Shown here: piece after piece, positions 761-10,670 of the stretch | Position numbering within the stretch: the stretch's first letter is position 1 | Layout: every line of letters begins with the position of its first letter | Assembly (NCBI GenBank): GCA_002311635.1 | Contig: DBZJ01000164.1 | Coordinates: forward strand, 1 to 13,640 | Source of the DNA: Syntrophaceae bacterium UBA1163 | GTDB lineage: Bacteria > Desulfobacterota > BSN033 > UBA1163 | DNA: 13,640 nt | Direction of reading: 5' to 3' | Made by a program: the position numbers and the translations under genes | The notes under the pieces: generated by a model | What the model was told of the DNA's origin: nothing | Seen by the model: the letters and a program-made list of their open reading frames with translations, nothing else | Databases searched by the model: none

Positions 761-1888
761 GTGACAGATAGCAAAATGTTTATCAGGTTTTATCCGGTGG
801 GAAACGGGGATTCGGCTTTGATAGAGGACCTGGAAAGGAAACATTTGATGATCGACTATAACTGTGTCAGTGAGGCCGAAGAAGATAACGGCGATAGGAT
901 ATTCCTTGAGGACGAGCTTGACGAGAGACTGGACGGCAAAGACCTTGACGTTCCGATGATCACCCATGCCCACGAGGACCATTTTCAGGGGTTTTCGAAT
1001 TATTTTTGGCTGAATTCATCCAAGAAGCATCAGGGCGACGACCGGAAGAAGATGACCGAACTCTGGGTCCCTGACTCGATAATTTGGGAACCCGGGGCCG
1101 AAGATGAGGAGAAGCTGCTCTGCAAGGAAGCGCGTTACCGACTGCTGGATGACAAGAAGGGGATAAAAGTTTTTGGGGAGTCGGACTCCTTGAAAGAATA
1201 TATCAACAATAGCGGAAAGGCCAAATATGAGGAGGTTAAGCACCTGATCAAGAAGCCAGGAGAGATTGTCAGCCATTTTAAAGGATTCGAAATCTTCATC
1301 CATTCCCCTCATTCATGGGTCACAGAGGAGGATGAGAATAAGAACAACAAGTGTATCGTGGTTCAGCTTGATTTCAGGATCGACTCCGAGTCCGTCGCAA
1401 AGGCAATATTTGGAAGCGATGCAGAATCCGATGCTTGGGAGAGCATCTATTCGGCAACGAACAACAACAAGAATCTCGACAGGCTGGATTTTGACATCTT
1501 CAAACTGGCCCACCATTGCAGCCACACGCTCTTAAACAAGGATGAAAAGGGGAATTTGATTACTGAACCGGTTGAAAAGGTTAAGAAGATTTTCGAGGAG
1601 CGCGGAAGGGAGAAAGCCAAATTGATCGCCTCGTGTGATCGTATTCCATCGAAGCAGGACCGGAACGAAACCGGACCCCCACATTACCAGGCGGCGGAAT
1701 ACTACAGAAAGGTTAGAGACCTCAAGAAAGGTGATTTCAGAGTGACGATGGAGGAGCCGAAGGGGTCCAGGAATATCAAACCGATTGTAATCGAAATAAC
1801 AAAGTACGGTCCCCGCTTTGATCAGCTATCGGCAGCGGTTTTCGGGGGCGGAACCATCACATCAACCAAATCCGAGCGGCATGGCTGA
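761..1888 (+). CDS. ComEC-type metallo-beta-lactamase-fold hydrolase
   Basis: This is a predicted cytoplasmic metallohydrolase of 375 residues with no signal peptide. The opening FYPVGNGDSALIE (10-22) and MIDYN (30-34) match the first strands of the ComEC/Rec2-like branch. The metal site is HAHEDH (69-74), the HxHxDH signature; GSDAE (218-222) supplies the bridging Asp and LAHHCSH (249-255) matches the KxxHHGS-type block. The substrate is unknown; this branch includes nucleases and phosphoesterases. A long tail after about residue 345 ends in glycine. The GTG start is chosen because AGGAG (749-753) lies 7 nt upstream. Its TGA overlaps the ATG of the next gene by one base, so the two are probably translationally coupled. 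Association of such hydrolases with E2-E1-JAB proteins fits what I recall of comparative-genomic work on prokaryotic ubiquitin-like systems. Confidence 0.88.
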   Translation: MTDSKMFIRFYPVGNGDSALIEDLERKHLMIDYNCVSEAEEDNGDRIFLEDELDERLDGKDLDVPMITHAHEDHFQGFSNYFWLNSSKKHQGDDRKKMTELWVPDSIIWEPGAEDEEKLLCKEARYRLLDDKKGIKVFGESDSLKEYINNSGKAKYEEVKHLIKKPGEIVSHFKGFEIFIHSPHSWVTEEDENKNNKCIVVQLDFRIDSESVAKAIFGSDAESDAWESIYSATNNNKNLDRLDFDIFKLAHHCSHTLLNKDEKGNLITEPVEKVKKIFEERGREKAKLIASCDRIPSKQDRNETGPPHYQAAEYYRKVRDLKKGDFRVTMEEPKGSRNIKPIVIEITKYGPRFDQLSAAVFGGGTITSTKSERHG

Positions 1889-3057
1889 TGGATTTCTACG
1901 AAACCAAGCCCTTTGAAAGCGGTCACGTTCTTTCGGAACCGCTGAAAATAATGAAATCGGCCCTTCTCCAGAATCCGCAGGCTTTGGGCGGATTGATGGA
2001 GTATGAATGCGAAGGCTATCTGAACGGTAATGAAGCGATTGTCATTAGTATGCAAGTGGGCGTGCCCAGCCGTTCCCCATTCGGTGTTTTGGAACAGGAA
2101 AAGGTGGCGATCTGCCTGCTTGTGAATAATCCGCAGAAGCTCCAGACGTTTTCCCTGAGAAAGAATTTTCCACCCTTACCTCATTTGAACTTCAGTTATA
2201 AAGATACACCAAGAAGTCTTTGCCTGTTTGATGTTCCTCAAATGGACAGGGTCTATAATGAAACCTATGTGGAATTCCTTTTCAGAGTTAAGAAATGGCT
2301 CGACAGGGCCGCTGCCGGTGAGCTCCATTTAGCAGAGCAAGCGATGGAGCCCTTTGTCTTGGAGTCTACCGGGTACATGGTTATAAGTGCTGAAGCAGAG
2401 AAAAAAATTATTGAGGGGGCTCCTGCGTTCGATATACTTGTTTCCAAATATGTACCTGCTGATGAATCCAATGTGGATTATATAGAGATCTTCCCATCGA
2501 AAGGGAACGTCAAAGAATCTCCGCTTTTGGTGCTGCCGATAAAGGGAAAGCCTTCTGGTGACCGGTGCATTAACCACCTTCCGGGAAACTACCTGGAATT
2601 GGCGGATTTATTGAAAGGCAAGCTGGATATTGATTTGGATAAAGATATACTTAAGTTCATTTCCGACACTTACCGGAAATGGGGTCTCAAAGAATACCGC
2701 AATAAGAAGATTTTGGACCAATGGGTCGTTCTCGCCATCTGCATCCCCAGGCTCAATCTAAGAGGAACGCAAACCGGGCACGAGATTAGATCTTTTGGTT
2801 TGTTTGTACCTTTGCATCGACTGGGTAAGGCACTGGGGTGCATCGTGGAGCAACCGAACAAGAAAAAGAAAGAATCCACCTTTATCTTTAAAGATAGGTT
2901 GGCCAGAAAAGAAGACGATCTCAAGAAAATCAGGCCCGTTCCGTTTGCTGTCGTTCAACCTTTCTCAATAGATTTGGCCAAGAGCATGGCAGGGCTTACT
3001 ATTGACATCTCCGATGTAAGAATGTCGGCCATTGGGCTTGGTGCTTTGGGGTCATAG
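1888..3057 (+). CDS. E2-like (UBC) domain plus start of E1-like domain; ends at in-frame amber
   Basis: This is the first half of what should be a 755-codon E2-E1-JAB protein. Residues about 35-160 look like a prokaryotic E2 domain: FPPLPHLNF (94-102), then RSLCLFD (109-115) with Cys112 as the expected thioester cysteine. A conserved-looking WLDRAAAGELH (137-147) and MEPFVL (153-158) follow. Residues about 160-375 are an unassigned linker region. The chain ends AIGLGALGS (381-389), the glycine loop that opens the E1/ThiF nucleotide-binding fold, and is cut there by TAG. On its own it would have an E2 domain but no working E1. The ATG overlaps the hydrolase stop (TGATG). E2 assignment is by motif recognition and moderately sure; the broken E1 start is clear because the rest follows in frame. 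Confidence 0.82.
   Translation: MDFYETKPFESGHVLSEPLKIMKSALLQNPQALGGLMEYECEGYLNGNEAIVISMQVGVPSRSPFGVLEQEKVAICLLVNNPQKLQTFSLRKNFPPLPHLNFSYKDTPRSLCLFDVPQMDRVYNETYVEFLFRVKKWLDRAAAGELHLAEQAMEPFVLESTGYMVISAEAEKKIIEGAPAFDILVSKYVPADESNVDYIEIFPSKGNVKESPLLVLPIKGKPSGDRCINHLPGNYLELADLLKGKLDIDLDKDILKFISDTYRKWGLKEYRNKKILDQWVVLAICIPRLNLRGTQTGHEIRSFGLFVPLHRLGKALGCIVEQPNKKKKESTFIFKDRLARKEDDLKKIRPVPFAVVQPFSIDLAKSMAGLTIDISDVRMSAIGLGALGS
3055..3057 (+). other. In-frame TAG inside the E1 nucleotide-binding loop
   Basis: The stop separates GLGALGS from VVLNLCRQGF without any change of frame, and it occupies exactly one residue position of the E1 fold, where relatives have a variable residue between GS and the next helix. 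A single C-to-T change of a CAG codon would create it. No Shine-Dalgarno sequence precedes the GTG that follows. TAG also ends the membrane-protein gene at 4245 and sppA, so general reassignment is unlikely. Nonsense mutation, sequencing error or specific readthrough all fit. Confidence 0.9.
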
Positions 3058-4155
3058 GTGGTTTTGAATCTGTGCCGACAGGGGTTCGCTAGGTGGAAGC
3101 TCGTTGACGATGACATCCTGCTGCCGCACAATTTTGCACGCCATGGGTTGAGCGCGGGATTTAGGGGACAATCAAAAGCTGCCTCCCTAGCCAGAGAAAT
3201 AGGTTTGATTTTGGATAAAACGGATGTGAAAGCTTATGACCAGAACTTCCACAGTCTGCGGGAAGTCCGGAAAGAAATACTGAATACTGCTGCTATCATG
3301 GATTTTTCGGCCTCGTATTCTGTGCTTATGGATCTCTGCCGCGAGAGCAAAAGGTCGCGGGCTCTCAGTGCATACTTCTCAAACGAAGGACTTACTTCGG
3401 TTCTGCTTTCGGAGGACCGGGAAAGGAGAATCAGGCTGGATGACATTGATCTCCAGCTAAAGATCCGGGCACTAACAAGCCCATACATCGGAACCATTTA
3501 CAGAGCGAGAGAGGGAAATCAGCTTGTTTATTCCACTTCGTGCAGCAGCCAGACGATGGTAATGCCGCAGGATTTGGTATCAATCCACGCTGGGATTGTA
3601 ACGAGACAGATAAAGGAAAGTATTTCTTGCAGTGATGCCAGAGCATTTGTTAATGTCGTCTCGGAGGAAGATTTTGGCGTTAATGTTGAACAATTTTCTC
3701 CATGCGAGATGACTATTAAGGAGGCGGGGCCTTGGGAATTCAGGATAAGCCAGATCGCCCTTACAGAGATGAGTGAATACCGAAGACTCAAGCTTCCAAA
3801 TGAAACTGGAGGGGTTTTGATTGGCTGGATCAGTAGTTATAACAAAACAATCTATGTGGGAAAAGCGCTGCCGGCTCCGGGAGACAGCGTAGAACGCCCT
3901 TACTACTTCATAAGGGGGAAAAAAGGTCTGTACGCTGAGGTACAACACTTGCGGAGGGTTTCCAATAATGACCTAAGATATGTCGGTGAGTGGCACAGTC
4001 ATCCGTTTGGATTGTCTGTCCGCCAGAGTCCGGATGACATGAAATCTATGGCCAGGTTGTCAGGTATAATGATCGAAGAGGGACTTCCGGGGATTATGCT
4101 TATTTTAGCTGACGACAACGAATTAGGTTGTTACGTCCAGACGGAATGGGAATGA
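3058..4155 (+). CDS. E1-like (ThiF fold) remainder plus JAB/JAMM isopeptidase domain
   Basis: This is the second half of the same E2-E1-JAB chain. Residues 1-60 complete the E1 fold: WKLVDDD (13-19), LLPHNFARH (21-29) and the GQSKA stretch (37-41), matching the ATP- and adenylate-binding elements of ThiF/E1 proteins. Cys162 in STSCSSQ is the best candidate for the E1 thioester cysteine. From about residue 230 a JAB domain follows: Glu249 in NETGGVLIG, then EWHSHPFG (311-318) and SPDD (324-327). The spacing is exactly HSHP-x7-SxxD with His313, His315, Ser324 and Asp327, so the zinc site looks complete. JAB enzymes remove ubiquitin-like proteins from targets or trim their C-termini. The GTG directly after the TAG lacks a ribosome binding site, so independent translation is doubtful except by reinitiation or readthrough. 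The coding sequence otherwise shows no decay. Confidence 0.85.
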   Translation: MVLNLCRQGFARWKLVDDDILLPHNFARHGLSAGFRGQSKAASLAREIGLILDKTDVKAYDQNFHSLREVRKEILNTAAIMDFSASYSVLMDLCRESKRSRALSAYFSNEGLTSVLLSEDRERRIRLDDIDLQLKIRALTSPYIGTIYRAREGNQLVYSTSCSSQTMVMPQDLVSIHAGIVTRQIKESISCSDARAFVNVVSEEDFGVNVEQFSPCEMTIKEAGPWEFRISQIALTEMSEYRRLKLPNETGGVLIGWISSYNKTIYVGKALPAPGDSVERPYYFIRGKKGLYAEVQHLRRVSNNDLRYVGEWHSHPFGLSVRQSPDDMKSMARLSGIMIEEGLPGIMLILADDNELGCYVQTEWE

Positions 4156-4244: not shown

Positions 4245-5006
4245 CTATGAGGGTTTGGGTTGGTTCGCGGATTCCAGGACATCAACGGTGGACAGCAGTT
4301 GTATAGCATATGCTTCCGCGGCGGTCTTTACCCAGTCAGGCTTTATTACAAAAAACCAGATCATCAAGAAAGATATATTTAGGATCATAGCAACCCATGC
4401 GACTGGCTTCGCGGAAGTTAGTTCTGTGCAATAGGGATGAATTTGGGTGAAGACCAGAACCATAGATAGAATGTCCAGGATCACTGCCACGGGTTTCATT
4501 CCCCACAAATTCCTTCTGAAACCATAATTTACGTTTTCTTCAAAGACCAGGGGAAATTTTTCCTTGTCCCGCGAGCGGGCTCTTAGAAAATCTCCACAAG
4601 AATCATAAATTGCATCCGCCCTATCAGGATTGCTTTTCTCTTCTTCTGAAGTTGGCAGCCTTATGGGAATGAGACGAGTCAATCTTTCATGATAGCGAGC
4701 CAACGTTGGAACGCTGAGTGTAGAATCCCGGTGTCTAAGCATCCTGGTCGAGGGCTTTCCTCCCCACAGTTTATAAAGCCCCGGCTCTTTGCGCTTGCCG
4801 CGATCCCTTGCAAGCTGCTCAAGGAAAACCGCTAGCCCAGCAGAAGTGCCCAACCAAACGATAATATCCCACCCGGCAAATTTGTTCGGGAAGAGGGTTG
4901 CGAGGGAAAGGCCTATCGGAAGCAATACTATCAGAGCGGGAACAATTCGGGCATTAAATGCATATTTATCAACGAACCGAACTGGATCTAGCTTATCACT
5001 GGGCAC
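4245..5006 (-). CDS. Four-helix membrane protein of unknown function
   Basis: The product has 253 residues with two N-terminal helices (about 21-39 and 46-65), a central cytoplasmic block of roughly 100 residues and two C-terminal helices (about 171-189 and 201-222). The block holds the striking stretch LWGGKPSTRMLRHRD (80-94) and FPLVFEENVNYGFRRN (151-166). I do not recognise a named family. The 2+2 helix layout with a cytoplasmic middle recalls small four-helix effectors of antiviral systems such as the S-4TM type, but I see no sequence match. The GTG at 5006 is preferred because GGAGG (5011-5015) sits 4 nt upstream; a GTG at 5039 in the same frame would add 11 residues with three cysteines. 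It is convergent with the hydrolase/E2-E1-JAB pair. The stop is TAG. Confidence 0.75.
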   Translation of the reverse strand: MPSDKLDPVRFVDKYAFNARIVPALIVLLPIGLSLATLFPNKFAGWDIIVWLGTSAGLAVFLEQLARDRGKRKEPGLYKLWGGKPSTRMLRHRDSTLSVPTLARYHERLTRLIPIRLPTSEEEKSNPDRADAIYDSCGDFLRARSRDKEKFPLVFEENVNYGFRRNLWGMKPVAVILDILSMVLVFTQIHPYCTELTSAKPVAWVAMILNISFLMIWFFVIKPDWVKTAAEAYAIQLLSTVDVLESANQPKPS

Positions 5007-5608
5007 ACATCCTCCAGAGCAAAAAAAACAGTGTTGCACCTTCCCCTAGTAAGCACGCTATTACGGCATGCTTCTGTTGTCAACATAATTTTTTAGAAAA
5101 CCCGCTTACCACCAGCAGGGAGCTCGTTCGCTTTTCTTTCAATGCTGCTTCCCTTTCGCGAAAAAGCCGATATGTCTAATCACCATTGGAGGGAGAAAGA
5201 TAAGACAGTCTTTAGTTGGAACTGCACTGTGGAATCAATTAAAAGGTAAAAACCGCAAATCCCCTAAGACGTAAATTTTGCGTTTTAAGCCCATAATTAG
5301 GCAATAATGACCAGGGGCTAATAATTCATATGGCCCAGCGGGAAAAGACGCTTAAAAAAGTGTATTAAACGGTTAATAAACGCATCTTGGAGAGATATAT
5401 AAGGGTGAAATTGCGATCTTAGGACTCAGTCCCATGCTTTCACCGGTTAGATCCCAGTGTTTTGGGGAAATATGGAGGCAAGAGCCCCCAATCCCCATGT
5501 CTTCCGTGTCTTCCAATTCTCATTGACGGCCTCCCACTGAATTTAGTAAAGTTAAATAGAAAATACTTCTCATTTACATCAGATTATTCTGACGAGAGAT
5601 AATTGAAT
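5007..5608. other. 600-bp intergenic stretch
   Basis: No convincing gene is present. Ahead of the leftward membrane-protein gene a TTGACA (minus strand, 5083-5078) has only poor -10 candidates. An imperfect hairpin (AAGCACGC 5051-5058 with GCATGCTT 5066-5073) lies in that leader. Further right the sequence is AT-rich, with TTGGGG (5460-5465) and CCCCAA able to pair near 5486-5491. It divides divergently transcribed genes, so both promoters should lie inside it. I see no tRNA, known riboswitch or repeat array. Confidence 0.4.
5523..5552 (+). promoter_or_regulatory. Possible promoter of the single-span membrane protein gene
   Basis: TTGACG (5523-5528) is separated by 18 bp from TAAAGT (5547-5552, four of six consensus positions), 56 bp before the gene start. 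The 15 bases 5513-5527 recur exactly at 13196-13210, also ahead of a small membrane-protein gene. Confidence 0.35.
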
Positions 5609-6058
5609 ATGGAGACGTTGGACTTTAGCAAATGGTTACCCGTATTTATATCGGGGGCTGCTGTTGCAATTAGCTTGCTTTCTCTTTTCTGGAATGTTGT
5701 TCTGGAACGAAAGAGAAGTAAAGCAAAGTTAGAAGTTTGGCAACGAAATCATTTTTACCTTGGCAGAGGAAATGAAAGAACTGAAATTGAATTGCTATTT
5801 CGTAATCTCAGTCATCGTCCTACTGCAATAATTGACATATATGTTAGAGAAAAGGAGGGCGGTATTTTAGGAGGATCGGGATATAACAATAACATTAAGC
5901 TTCCAATTCAGCTCGAGCCTTGGGGGGTAATTTCAGCAAGCTTCAGGATAGAAAAAAATGACGAAGCACGGATGGCAAATATCCTGGTCAAGGATATTGA
6001 AGATAATGAGATTGTAGTTGTCCGTGGTCCTGGTCAGAAATGGGTCAAAGCAAAATGA
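5609..6058 (+). CDS. Small membrane-anchored protein, function unknown
   Basis: The product has 149 residues: one hydrophobic helix near the N-terminus (about 8-31) followed by basic residues ERKRSK, then about 110 residues rich in predicted beta strands. The charge pattern suggests the C-terminal domain faces the cytoplasm. The beta-rich part has alternating hydrophobic stretches such as TEIELLFRNLS and TAIIDIYVRE, like a small beta-sandwich. I do not recognise a named family or catalytic motif. The ATG at 5609 is chosen; a TTG two codons earlier (5603) lies closer to the weak GAGAG at 5594-5598 and is possible. It stands alone, with long gaps on both sides. Confidence 0.65.
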   Translation: METLDFSKWLPVFISGAAVAISLLSLFWNVVLERKRSKAKLEVWQRNHFYLGRGNERTEIELLFRNLSHRPTAIIDIYVREKEGGILGGSGYNNNIKLPIQLEPWGVISASFRIEKNDEARMANILVKDIEDNEIVVVRGPGQKWVKAK

Positions 6059-6158
6059 AAATGCCCGTGTATGAATTGGGGTCAATTTTTCATCCTTGAT
6101 CAGTCATATAAAAATTTGCTGTAGTTCCCGGTATCAGGTCAACACTATTCACAGGTTC

Positions 6159-6635: not shown

Positions 6636-6777
6636 GAAAACAAAATACTATTTCAGGCTCATATCGGTAGTCTCCATCTTGGGATGCCCTTTGGGAAATT
6701 ACCGTTGGGAGACATAAAGACCCGGGAATGGGTAACTCCGATTGGAATTGACATTACAAAGGAAGGAGGAGCAGAAG

Positions 6778-7509
6778 ATGATATGGAATGAATATGCCGA
6801 GAGATTGAGGGAGGTCTTGAAACTCGATGGCAATCCTATTGCCATTACCTTTTCAATGGCCCCCGCTGAGGGAGGAAAGGGAGGTAAACATTGGGTCTGT
6901 GGGGCTTTGCAGGAGGCAAGGGATGGTGTCATTATCAATTTGGATAAGGAGAATTCAGCCTGCCATGGAGGCACGTGGCATCTCGGACTGGGGCCAAGGC
7001 CCAGCGGGAAGGAGGATAAAGCATTAAAGAAATTTTTAGTTGAAGGCGAGAAATTATTCTGCTCTATTGCTACATTCCATCGAGCGATGACCCTGACCGC
7101 TCAGCCTCCTCTTGGGCTGGCTGATTATGTTATTATTTCTCCTTTGGGGAAAGCCCCATCCAAACCAGACCTTGTTCTTTTCCTCTGCAACGCCGAGCAG
7201 GCATGTCGTCTCCTTACTTTGGCCACTTATGATAGTGGAGTTTCACCCAAGACCGAACTCGTCGGATCGGCCTGCCATATGGCCATTACCTACCCTCTCG
7301 TATCAGGGGAGATCAATGTGAGCTTCATGGATTACACGGCAAGAAAGATGAAAGGGTACAAACCGAATGAACTCTTTGTATCCATTCCCTACCATCGGAT
7401 GGCTGGGATCATGGAGAGCATTCCTTTCTGTACGGCAGGAACAGCCAAGACAGAGTATCCACCTGAATTTAGACACTTAGTGGAAGGCTCATCGGAAACC
7501 AAATCCTAA
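6778..7509 (+). CDS. DUF169 family protein
   Basis: The product has 243 residues, a usual length for DUF169, a family of unknown function common in methanogens and anaerobic bacteria. Family features are a start with YAERLREVLKLDGNPIAI (6-23) and cysteines Cys41 (VCGALQEARDG) and Cys62 in SACHGGTWHLGLG (60-72). A later part has the LVLFLCNAEQACRLL stretch (132-146) and SACHMAITYPLVSGEINVSF (165-184). Cysteines at 41, 62, 95, 137, 143, 166 and 218 could bind metal or cofactor, but no role is established as far as I know. No signal peptide or membrane helix is present. The ATG at 6778 is chosen because GGAAGGAGGA (6761-6770) lies 7 nt upstream; an in-frame TTG at 6742 lacks such a site. Confidence 0.85.
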   Translation: MIWNEYAERLREVLKLDGNPIAITFSMAPAEGGKGGKHWVCGALQEARDGVIINLDKENSACHGGTWHLGLGPRPSGKEDKALKKFLVEGEKLFCSIATFHRAMTLTAQPPLGLADYVIISPLGKAPSKPDLVLFLCNAEQACRLLTLATYDSGVSPKTELVGSACHMAITYPLVSGEINVSFMDYTARKMKGYKPNELFVSIPYHRMAGIMESIPFCTAGTAKTEYPPEFRHLVEGSSETKS

Positions 7510-9736: not shown

Positions 9737-9779
9737 TTTGGAAATTGTTTTCACAACAAACCAAAAGGGAGAGAGGGTC

Positions 9780-10670
9780 ATGAAACGAAAACGGATCTTA
9801 ATTGGGTTAGGTGTCATCGCTGCACTTCTTATTTTCTTTTTTGCTGTGCTTTCCTTTATCGGAGGCTATTTTGGAGGGAAAACAGGCCGCTTTGCCTCTG
9901 GAGATAAAATTGGCATTGTAGAAGTGAAGGGTGTGATCACCCAATCCTCCGGGGTGATTGAGGAGCTCCAACAATATCTTGGGGATGAAGGGGTCAAGGC
10001 GATCATTCTTAGGGTCGATTCTCCAGGTGGGGGCGTTGGCCCATCGCAAGAGATCTACCGGGAGATCATGAGGATCAGGTCAAATTCAAAGAAAAAAGTG
10101 GTCACCTCCATGGGGTCTGTGGCAGCTTCGGGGGGCTATTATATCGCCAGTGCCTCTGATCTCATCGTTGCCAATCCTGGGACGATTACCGGGTCGATCG
10201 GTGTGATTATGGAGTTCGCCAATTTTGAAGAGCTCCTTAAAAAGATTGGAATCAAGGGAGTGGTGGTTAAAAGTGGAGAGAATAAAGATATCGGATCCCC
10301 TTTCCGTGAGATGACTCCAGAGGAGAAGGAGATTATGCAGGAAGTGCTCGATAATGTTCATGAGCAATTCATCCAGGCCGTGGCAGAGGGGAGGAAGCTG
10401 GATCGATCTAAAGTCGCTGAGATCGCAGATGGTCGAATCTTCACAGGGGAACAGGCTAAAAATCTGGGTTTGGTGGATGAACTGGGAAACTTTCAGGATA
10501 CGATCGATATCACTGCCACGATGGTGGGAATAGTAGGAAAACCGAACGTTCTCTATCCCAAAAAGAGATTTTCCATTTGGGAGCTTTTAATGAGGGATAT
10601 GGCTTCTGCCATCGTAGATGTTCTCAATGAGAAGGGATATGAAATAAACTTCCCCCTCCAGATTAAGTAG
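9780..10670 (+). CDS. sppA: Signal peptide peptidase SppA, S49 family
   Basis: This is a membrane-anchored serine protease that degrades signal peptides left in the membrane after protein export. It has 296 residues, the usual short single-domain form. One N-terminal helix (about 5-30) follows MKRKR, and the catalytic domain lies outside the cytoplasmic membrane. Characteristic blocks are IILRVDSPGGGV (75-86), the nucleophile Ser117 in GSVAASGGYY (112-121), GTITGSIGVI (134-143) and Lys169 in GENKDIGSP (166-174). The Ser-Lys distance of 52 residues equals that of Bacillus subtilis SppA, and the dyad looks intact. The later GRIFTGEQAKNLGLVDELG (218-236) is also typical. The start is the ATG with GGGAGAGAGG 3 nt upstream, downstream of the promoter. 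The stop is TAG. No operon partner is obvious. Confidence 0.95.
   Translation: MKRKRILIGLGVIAALLIFFFAVLSFIGGYFGGKTGRFASGDKIGIVEVKGVITQSSGVIEELQQYLGDEGVKAIILRVDSPGGGVGPSQEIYREIMRIRSNSKKKVVTSMGSVAASGGYYIASASDLIVANPGTITGSIGVIMEFANFEELLKKIGIKGVVVKSGENKDIGSPFREMTPEEKEIMQEVLDNVHEQFIQAVAEGRKLDRSKVAEIADGRIFTGEQAKNLGLVDELGNFQDTIDITATMVGIVGKPNVLYPKKRFSIWELLMRDMASAIVDVLNEKGYEINFPLQIK

Follow-up and report, generated by a model that had tools for sequence, protein, structure and literature searches.

An operon type designated 6a, in which a triple-module E2-E1-JAB gene lies beside a gene for a metallo-beta-lactamase (MBL)-fold protein, is described in the relevant part of Iyer et al. (2006; PMC1779556). 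In type II CBASS, as outlined in one section of a later account (PMC10097602), JAB is a separate protein, Cap3. NCBIfam already carries models named for a 6A-MBL system; its antiphage role is putative and rests on that NCBIfam name, and our literature search found neither a paper using the name 6A-MBL nor a primary antiphage paper. We analysed a stretch of 13,640 nucleotides from a Syntrophaceae bacterium (hereafter the window) in which, judged from profile matches, the gene at 761-1888 and the interrupted gene behind it are such a 6A-MBL antiphage system (Table 1). The MBL gene is directly upstream of cap2_3 and co-directional with it, and its stop overlaps the cap2_3 start as TGATG (1886-1890). 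An MBL homologue lies upstream of cap2_3 in all 82 related loci compared, which comprise 80 of the 462 loci found and two more, one of them apparently repeating a genome among the 80. Two intact relatives, P0002 and P0003, pass the cap2_3 model NF058523 with 529.5 and 515.8 bits (cut-off 320), and apart from one amber codon the DNA frame in the window is that of the 6A-MBL cap2_3 family.

Table 1. Features of the 6A-MBL locus in the window (position 1 is the first nucleotide of the window)
Feature	Position	Strand	Basis
6A-MBL metallo-beta-lactamase-fold protein, 375 aa, THAHEDH motif	761..1888	+	NF058524, 290.5 bits (cut-off 220)
N-terminal cap2_3 piece, E2 and start of E1 up to GLGALGS, 389 aa	1888..3057	+	PF14457; NF058523 below cut-off; identical P0158
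Predicted E2 active-site Cys112	2221..2223	+	Invariant column; putative role
Possible re-initiation site: G-rich stretch, TAG and abutting in-frame GTG	3047..3060	+	Sequence; conjectural use
In-frame amber TAG replacing the residue that follows GLGALGS	3055..3057	+	Frame and alignment
C-terminal cap2_3 piece, rest of E1 and JAB, 365 codons	3058..4155	+	NF058523, PF14464, kept invariants
E1 acidic residues Asp407 and Asp409	3106..3114	+	Alignment
Candidate E1 catalytic Cys552	3541..3543	+	Invariant; putative role
JAMM site Glu639, His703, His705, Ser714, Asp717	3802..4038	+	Alignment
Helical membrane protein, 253 aa, 4 hydrophobic segments, GTG start behind GGAGG	4245..5006	-	Model, pLDDT 92

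The original prediction described an otherwise intact E2-E1-JAB gene split by a single in-frame amber, with the stop taking the place of exactly one residue after GLGALGS and with the E1 aspartates, the candidate cysteine and the JAMM site kept in 365 open codons beyond it; every one of these points was re-found. The TAG at 3055-3057 is the sole break in a frame of 755 codons (read with X at the stop): an ORF of 389 aa begins with the ATG at 1888 and ends at the amber, and the next stop in the same frame, at 4153-4155, is reached after 365 further open codons. Under translation table 11, E2, E1 and JAB consequently do not stand in one polypeptide, owing to the amber. The read-through frame is collinear with P0002, its 82% identical relative, with 0 gaps, and the amber replaces the residue directly after GLGALGS, in the E1 nucleotide-loop region. 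Still encoded downstream are Asp407/409, Asn415, Arg418, Lys430, Asp472 and the candidate Cys552 of E1, followed in the JAB part by Glu639, His703, His705, Ser714 and Asp717, the set that we take to be the JAMM site. The post-stop frame is not a chance open frame, since it shares 307 of 365 residues with P0002, keeps all 28 of its columns that are invariant across 31 full-length homologues, and passes the NF058523 cut-off by itself (337.6 bits for the C-terminal piece, 169.1 bits for the N-terminal piece). The matches of the two pieces to this model meet at model positions 311 and 313. In Pfam, Prok-E2_A (PF14457, 63 bits) is found before the stop and Prok-JAB (PF14464, 35.6 bits, cut-off 25) after it; for E1, ThiF (PF00899) is matched only in part beyond the stop, with 19.3 bits, below the cut-off of 28.1.

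We consider it probable, though well short of certain, that the conjugation enzyme of this 6A-MBL system is cut by a genuine, lineage-level amber mutation and that the system is most likely disarmed. The enzyme, a fused Cap2-like E2-E1 plus a Cap3-like JAB, would be interrupted such that the product is 389 residues long, with the E2 domain complete (the predicted active-site Cys112 is retained) but the E1 fold reduced to its first strand and glycine loop; this product would have neither the E1 active site nor the JAB peptidase. With no E1 activity nothing would be loaded onto E2, and the system would therefore most likely be disarmed. In the structural model of P0003 (pLDDT 81) the glycine motif occupies residues 380-386 and the stop position corresponds to residue 387, inside the first helix (383-394) after the strand 375-379. 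On this model the cut is inside the E1 nucleotide-binding fold, not at a domain border. The position of the cut bears on a different outcome, in which stop-start coupling at the GTG that abuts the TAG in frame gives an E2 piece and an E1-JAB piece as two working subunits, or at least a free JAB peptidase. A G-rich TGGGGT lies 5 nt upstream of this GTG, the post-stop half is preserved, and JAB stands alone as Cap3 in type II CBASS, according to the section cited above (PMC10097602). We nevertheless hold such a restart to be unlikely: the cut lies within the nucleotide-binding fold, in the first helix beyond strand 1, and not between domains, a protein restarted at the GTG would be without E1 strand 1, a conserved hydrophobic position accounts for the GTG codon, and no relative was seen split at the amber position.

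A search with the N-terminal half, in which a length filter separates truncated from full-length proteins, returned an identical truncated protein of 389 residues (P0158). It represents a cluster of 18 sequences on 30 contigs, although these contigs may be partly redundant (several assemblies of one site) and some members may be fragments. The cluster is not just this window, since its longest contig has 13,878 bases and exceeds the window. The amber allele thus appears to recur, and no intact copy from the same lineage is seen among the full-length matches. We regard the amber as probably real and recurring and, because the allele is on other contigs too, as probably a lineage trait and not the accident of one clone. 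A base-call error, one of the three options originally offered, is disfavoured by the identical protein in the 30-contig cluster. More broadly, an error made in sequencing or assembling this contig could draw on the state of the genome, which is a bin of 4.08 Mb in 248 contigs, 90.6% complete, and on the inverted third gene (see below), which could also be a misjoin; against this stand the P0158 cluster, with a contig longer than the window, and a 308 kb sample of the genome in which no TAG-broken gene was established. We judge such an error to be very unlikely.

Two other genes in the window speak to the origin of the contig. The DUF169 protein encoded at 6742-7509 has an 80% identical counterpart in a congener (G001) and a distant match in 1 of 15 other relatives searched; its presence in the congener supports the contig belonging to this genus. 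At 9738-10670 lies a second copy of an S49 peptidase gene whose other copy, 84% identical, is on contig C116. Each of 16 related genomes gave one S49 match, and the C116 copy is closer than the window copy to all four congeners compared. From this S49 evidence, the window contig may come from a sister strain or may carry a duplication. The S49 genes of two related genomes, G007 and G008 (L166 and L170), each have one stop inside the match (TAG and TGA), which may only be gene ends.

Among 5.8 billion proteins, 36 relatives of the read-through protein were found, the best full-length ones being 82% and 70% identical. The full-length search scored only the 7990 candidates sharing most words, by which a close relative should not be lost; no full-length relative above 82% identity was among the 36 matches. 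In the stop column, glutamine is present in 33 of the 36 proteins (His, Asn and Lys in the other 3) and in 67 of the 82 loci (A, H, P, V, K, S, L or G in the other 15), the latter count being biased to glutamine because a pattern that includes GALGSQ played a part in choosing the set. The comparison with close relatives that had been proposed therefore yielded the expected glutamine as the usual residue, and it turned up no sense-codon copy from the same lineage and none above 82% identity. The amber column is free of stops in all 36 protein homologues (a search that favours unbroken proteins) and in all 82 loci, and in these loci the aligned gene has no stop at any other place either. The stop is thus not conserved among relatives as a programmed readthrough site or regulatory stop would be, the P0158 copies being of the same lineage.

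These counts weigh on the proposal that low-level readthrough by a near-cognate tRNA gives enough full-length enzyme, the stop serving to set how much of this costly protein is made. Residues besides glutamine are tolerated in the column (15 of 82 loci, 3 of 36 proteins), the genome has three tRNA-Gln genes, two of them with anticodon CUG, and the downstream half is preserved in a recurring allele. Yet the stop is absent from every relative examined (36 proteins, 82 loci), the RNA around it folds no better than shuffled sequences (z values of +0.71, +1.17 and -0.37), no suppressor tRNA was found among 37 tRNA matches, and leakiness of UAG is generally low. The original suggestion of a leaky amber as a control point thus found no positive support in the relatives or in the RNA fold, and we think readthrough quite unlikely.

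Irregular copies of other kinds were seen among the relatives. One cap2_3 relative (L138, 1534-3773) extends across two overlapping frames, as if frameshifted; in a plasmid record (H7) the E1 and JAB parts are listed with a transposase between them; and a protein of 429 aa (P0159) has an E2 domain without an E1 or JAB match and a tail that looks out of frame, possibly another broken cap2_3. P0159 and a homologue of the membrane protein (P0062) are both listed with a contig of 2,976,804 bases. Breakage elsewhere is understated in these comparisons because the locus and plasmid sets favour good matches.

Next, we examined how UAG is decoded in this genome. Release factor 1 is intact (549 bits, above the cut-off). 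Three matches to pyrrolysyl-tRNA synthetase (PylS) were obtained in the 90.6% complete genome, with 22.6 to 25.4 bits, all below the cut-off of 178; in the controls 1 of 14 genomes scored above it, which we take to be that of Methanosarcina acetivorans. No CUA anticodon is present in the 37 RF00005 tRNA matches (36 read by ARAGORN, and 1 copy cut by a run of N read by eye), with 150 of 207 candidates scored and about 9% of the genome missing. The copy read by eye, at 15740-15828 of L062 (numbered on its own contig, C147), has its 5' part hidden by the run of N and shows CTT in the anticodon loop. The RF00005 search was not exhaustive, as it missed a tRNA-Sec (C11:3002-3091, 81.4 bits, cut-off 47) that a search with its own family found. 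The recommended search for pylS or an amber suppressor tRNA accordingly came back with sub-threshold PylS matches and no CUA anticodon among the 37 matches, and the earlier view that UAG reassignment is unlikely agrees with these findings and with the presence of release factor 1.

We also surveyed other stops of this genome, in 20 sampled stretches totalling 307,804 bases. At a coding threshold of 0.08, above the 0.073 scored by the window's own gene, there are 169 coding-like segments, ending in TAA (75), TGA (57) or TAG (37), of which 20 stay open for at least 60 codons past the stop. The survey was repeated at thresholds of 0.07 and 0.05. At 0.05 there are 230 segments, with 93 TAA, 87 TGA and 50 TAG ends; 26 of them are followed by at least 60 open codons, 11 with a coding-like continuation, and the other 15, with weak or no coding signal, were listed only. 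Seven or eight of the 11 mark the border of a gene: in six an ATG, judged by eye to open a new gene, follows within eight codons, one joins a complete CarD to a PIN-TRAM protein, and in one a complete Memo domain ends and a short frame follows with only a sub-threshold OB-type match. For two more (L074 at 11718 and L072 at 5839) no family match was found before or after the stop. A genuine break is seen in L068, where a TGA separates a DsbC N-terminal domain from a thioredoxin-like domain (FSDPD-stop-PYC). This DsbC-like gene, at 5296-6063 on the minus strand of its own contig C116 with the in-frame TGA at 5629-5631 just before PYC, is a probable UGA selenoprotein when read together with the tRNA-Sec. 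Since it picked up this gene, the survey is able to find a recoded stop. Six of the 50 TAG stops have a long open continuation, two of them at gene borders and four without coding signal, and for none of the 50 could a broken gene be established in these 308 kb. Reassignment or recoding of UAG, as pyrrolysine or another amino acid, would account for a TAG in an otherwise open and conserved frame, and the genome does recode UGA (tRNA-Sec and the DsbC-like gene). With release factor 1 present, no PylS above cut-off, no CUA anticodon in the 37 matches and UAG ending 50 of 230 sampled coding-like segments, recoding is disfavoured, and we assign it an almost negligible likelihood.

To date the amber, the window was compared with P0002, with P0003 as outgroup. 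Before the stop there are 25 window-specific and 22 P0002-specific changes; after it there are 28 and 15, respectively (chi-square 3.9; binomial p 0.066). This excess hints at relaxed constraint after the stop, but it is not significant as a contrast between the N- and C-terminal halves (Fisher p 0.29). All 42 deep invariants are kept (14 before and 28 after the stop), as are 169 of 171 close invariants (70 of 71 before, 99 of 100 after); thirteen relatives handled likewise lose between 1 and 10 invariants. No second stop or frameshift is present in the 365 post-stop codons. Only one of the 28 window-specific post-stop changes strikes a close invariant, for which the chance is 0.0015 if all 28 were neutral and 0.09 if 13 were; much of the post-stop branch was therefore under constraint. 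A recent relaxed phase appears compatible with this substitution pattern. Recent loss would fit it, and so would a downstream half that is still in use. Because the downstream half is not visibly decayed, the amber would have arisen late and be young relative to the gene, and a recent nonsense mutation is the best supported of the three options originally offered.

We infer that function is lost, and also when and why; a possible reason is that the loss relieved the cell of the burden of a toxic defence system. As events go, a nonsense mutation that hits a defence gene is unremarkable; this one affects the key enzyme of a little-studied system. If the function is lost, nature has knocked out one enzyme of a ubiquitin-like antiphage system that has received little study, and the apparently intact MBL and membrane-protein genes make the locus a natural test of which parts persist without conjugation. 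It is the good preservation of the downstream half that leaves the more exciting readings a small likelihood. The amber might be a held, lineage-wide switch, with the enzyme off until UAG decoding changes (through a phage-borne suppressor tRNA or falling release factor 1, for instance) or made as two pieces by stop-start coupling; we rate this, including its proposed triggers, as highly improbable. Were a full-length or split enzyme made, the dose of a defence enzyme would here be controlled in an unusual manner.

The neighbouring membrane-protein gene belongs to a large family with 1,132 matches, and among the best 120 of these the closest is 97% identical (a cluster of 11) and no Pfam domain is found. 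No name for the family was obtained from Pfam or PADLOC (the window's protein and six others each) or from NCBIfam (the window's and three others). By tblastn, relatives are present in 24 of the 82 loci, in 22 of them adjacent, downstream and co-directional; L084 carries its relative about 1.8 kb downstream and L117 elsewhere on the other strand. A profile adds two loci (L092 and L094). The window gene is inverted relative to 22 out of 22 loci where the relative is adjacent to cap2_3. Neither this inversion of what is commonly the third gene of such operons nor the GTG abutting the amber figured in the original prediction. Elsewhere the same slot holds patatin-like proteins in 28 loci (LSGGG-type motif) and in L081, with PF01734 in 4 of 4 scanned, a caspase in L153, and other small membrane proteins in further loci; no ORF was found in 8 loci, and the contig is too short in 5. 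Examples of such third genes are those of L079, L088, L109, L131 and L153; among the 82 loci they often overlap the cap2_3 stop. The contents of the third slot resemble an interchangeable effector repertoire such as that of CBASS, and the membrane protein may act as a killing effector.

In comparison with known systems, the locus shares with the 6A-MBL system the succession of an MBL-fold gene and, immediately behind it, a triple-module E2-E1-JAB gene, and it differs in that the second gene is split by the amber and the neighbouring membrane-protein gene is inverted. The BubCD conjugation enzymes (9eae and related), which presumably come from another operon type, give a weaker fold match to the intact relative (1.9e-9) that scores below Cap2. 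Type II CBASS is closer: the E1 region of the window is nearest by profile to Cap2 among solved structures (7tsq, 1.8e-19), and the fold of the intact relative is also nearest to Cap2 (7to3, 1.3e-23). When the MBL protein, both pieces of cap2_3 and the membrane protein were scanned with PADLOC, models for JAB and Cap3 were hit by the JAB part, which scores 30.3 bits on NF050170, below the cut-off of 200. The locus departs from type II CBASS in that no CD-NTase was found by Pfam among ten window proteins and that 6A-MBL fuses E2-E1 and JAB in one gene. The exchangeable third gene (patatin, caspase or membrane protein) resembles the effector swapping of CBASS, and it gives a testable killing step.
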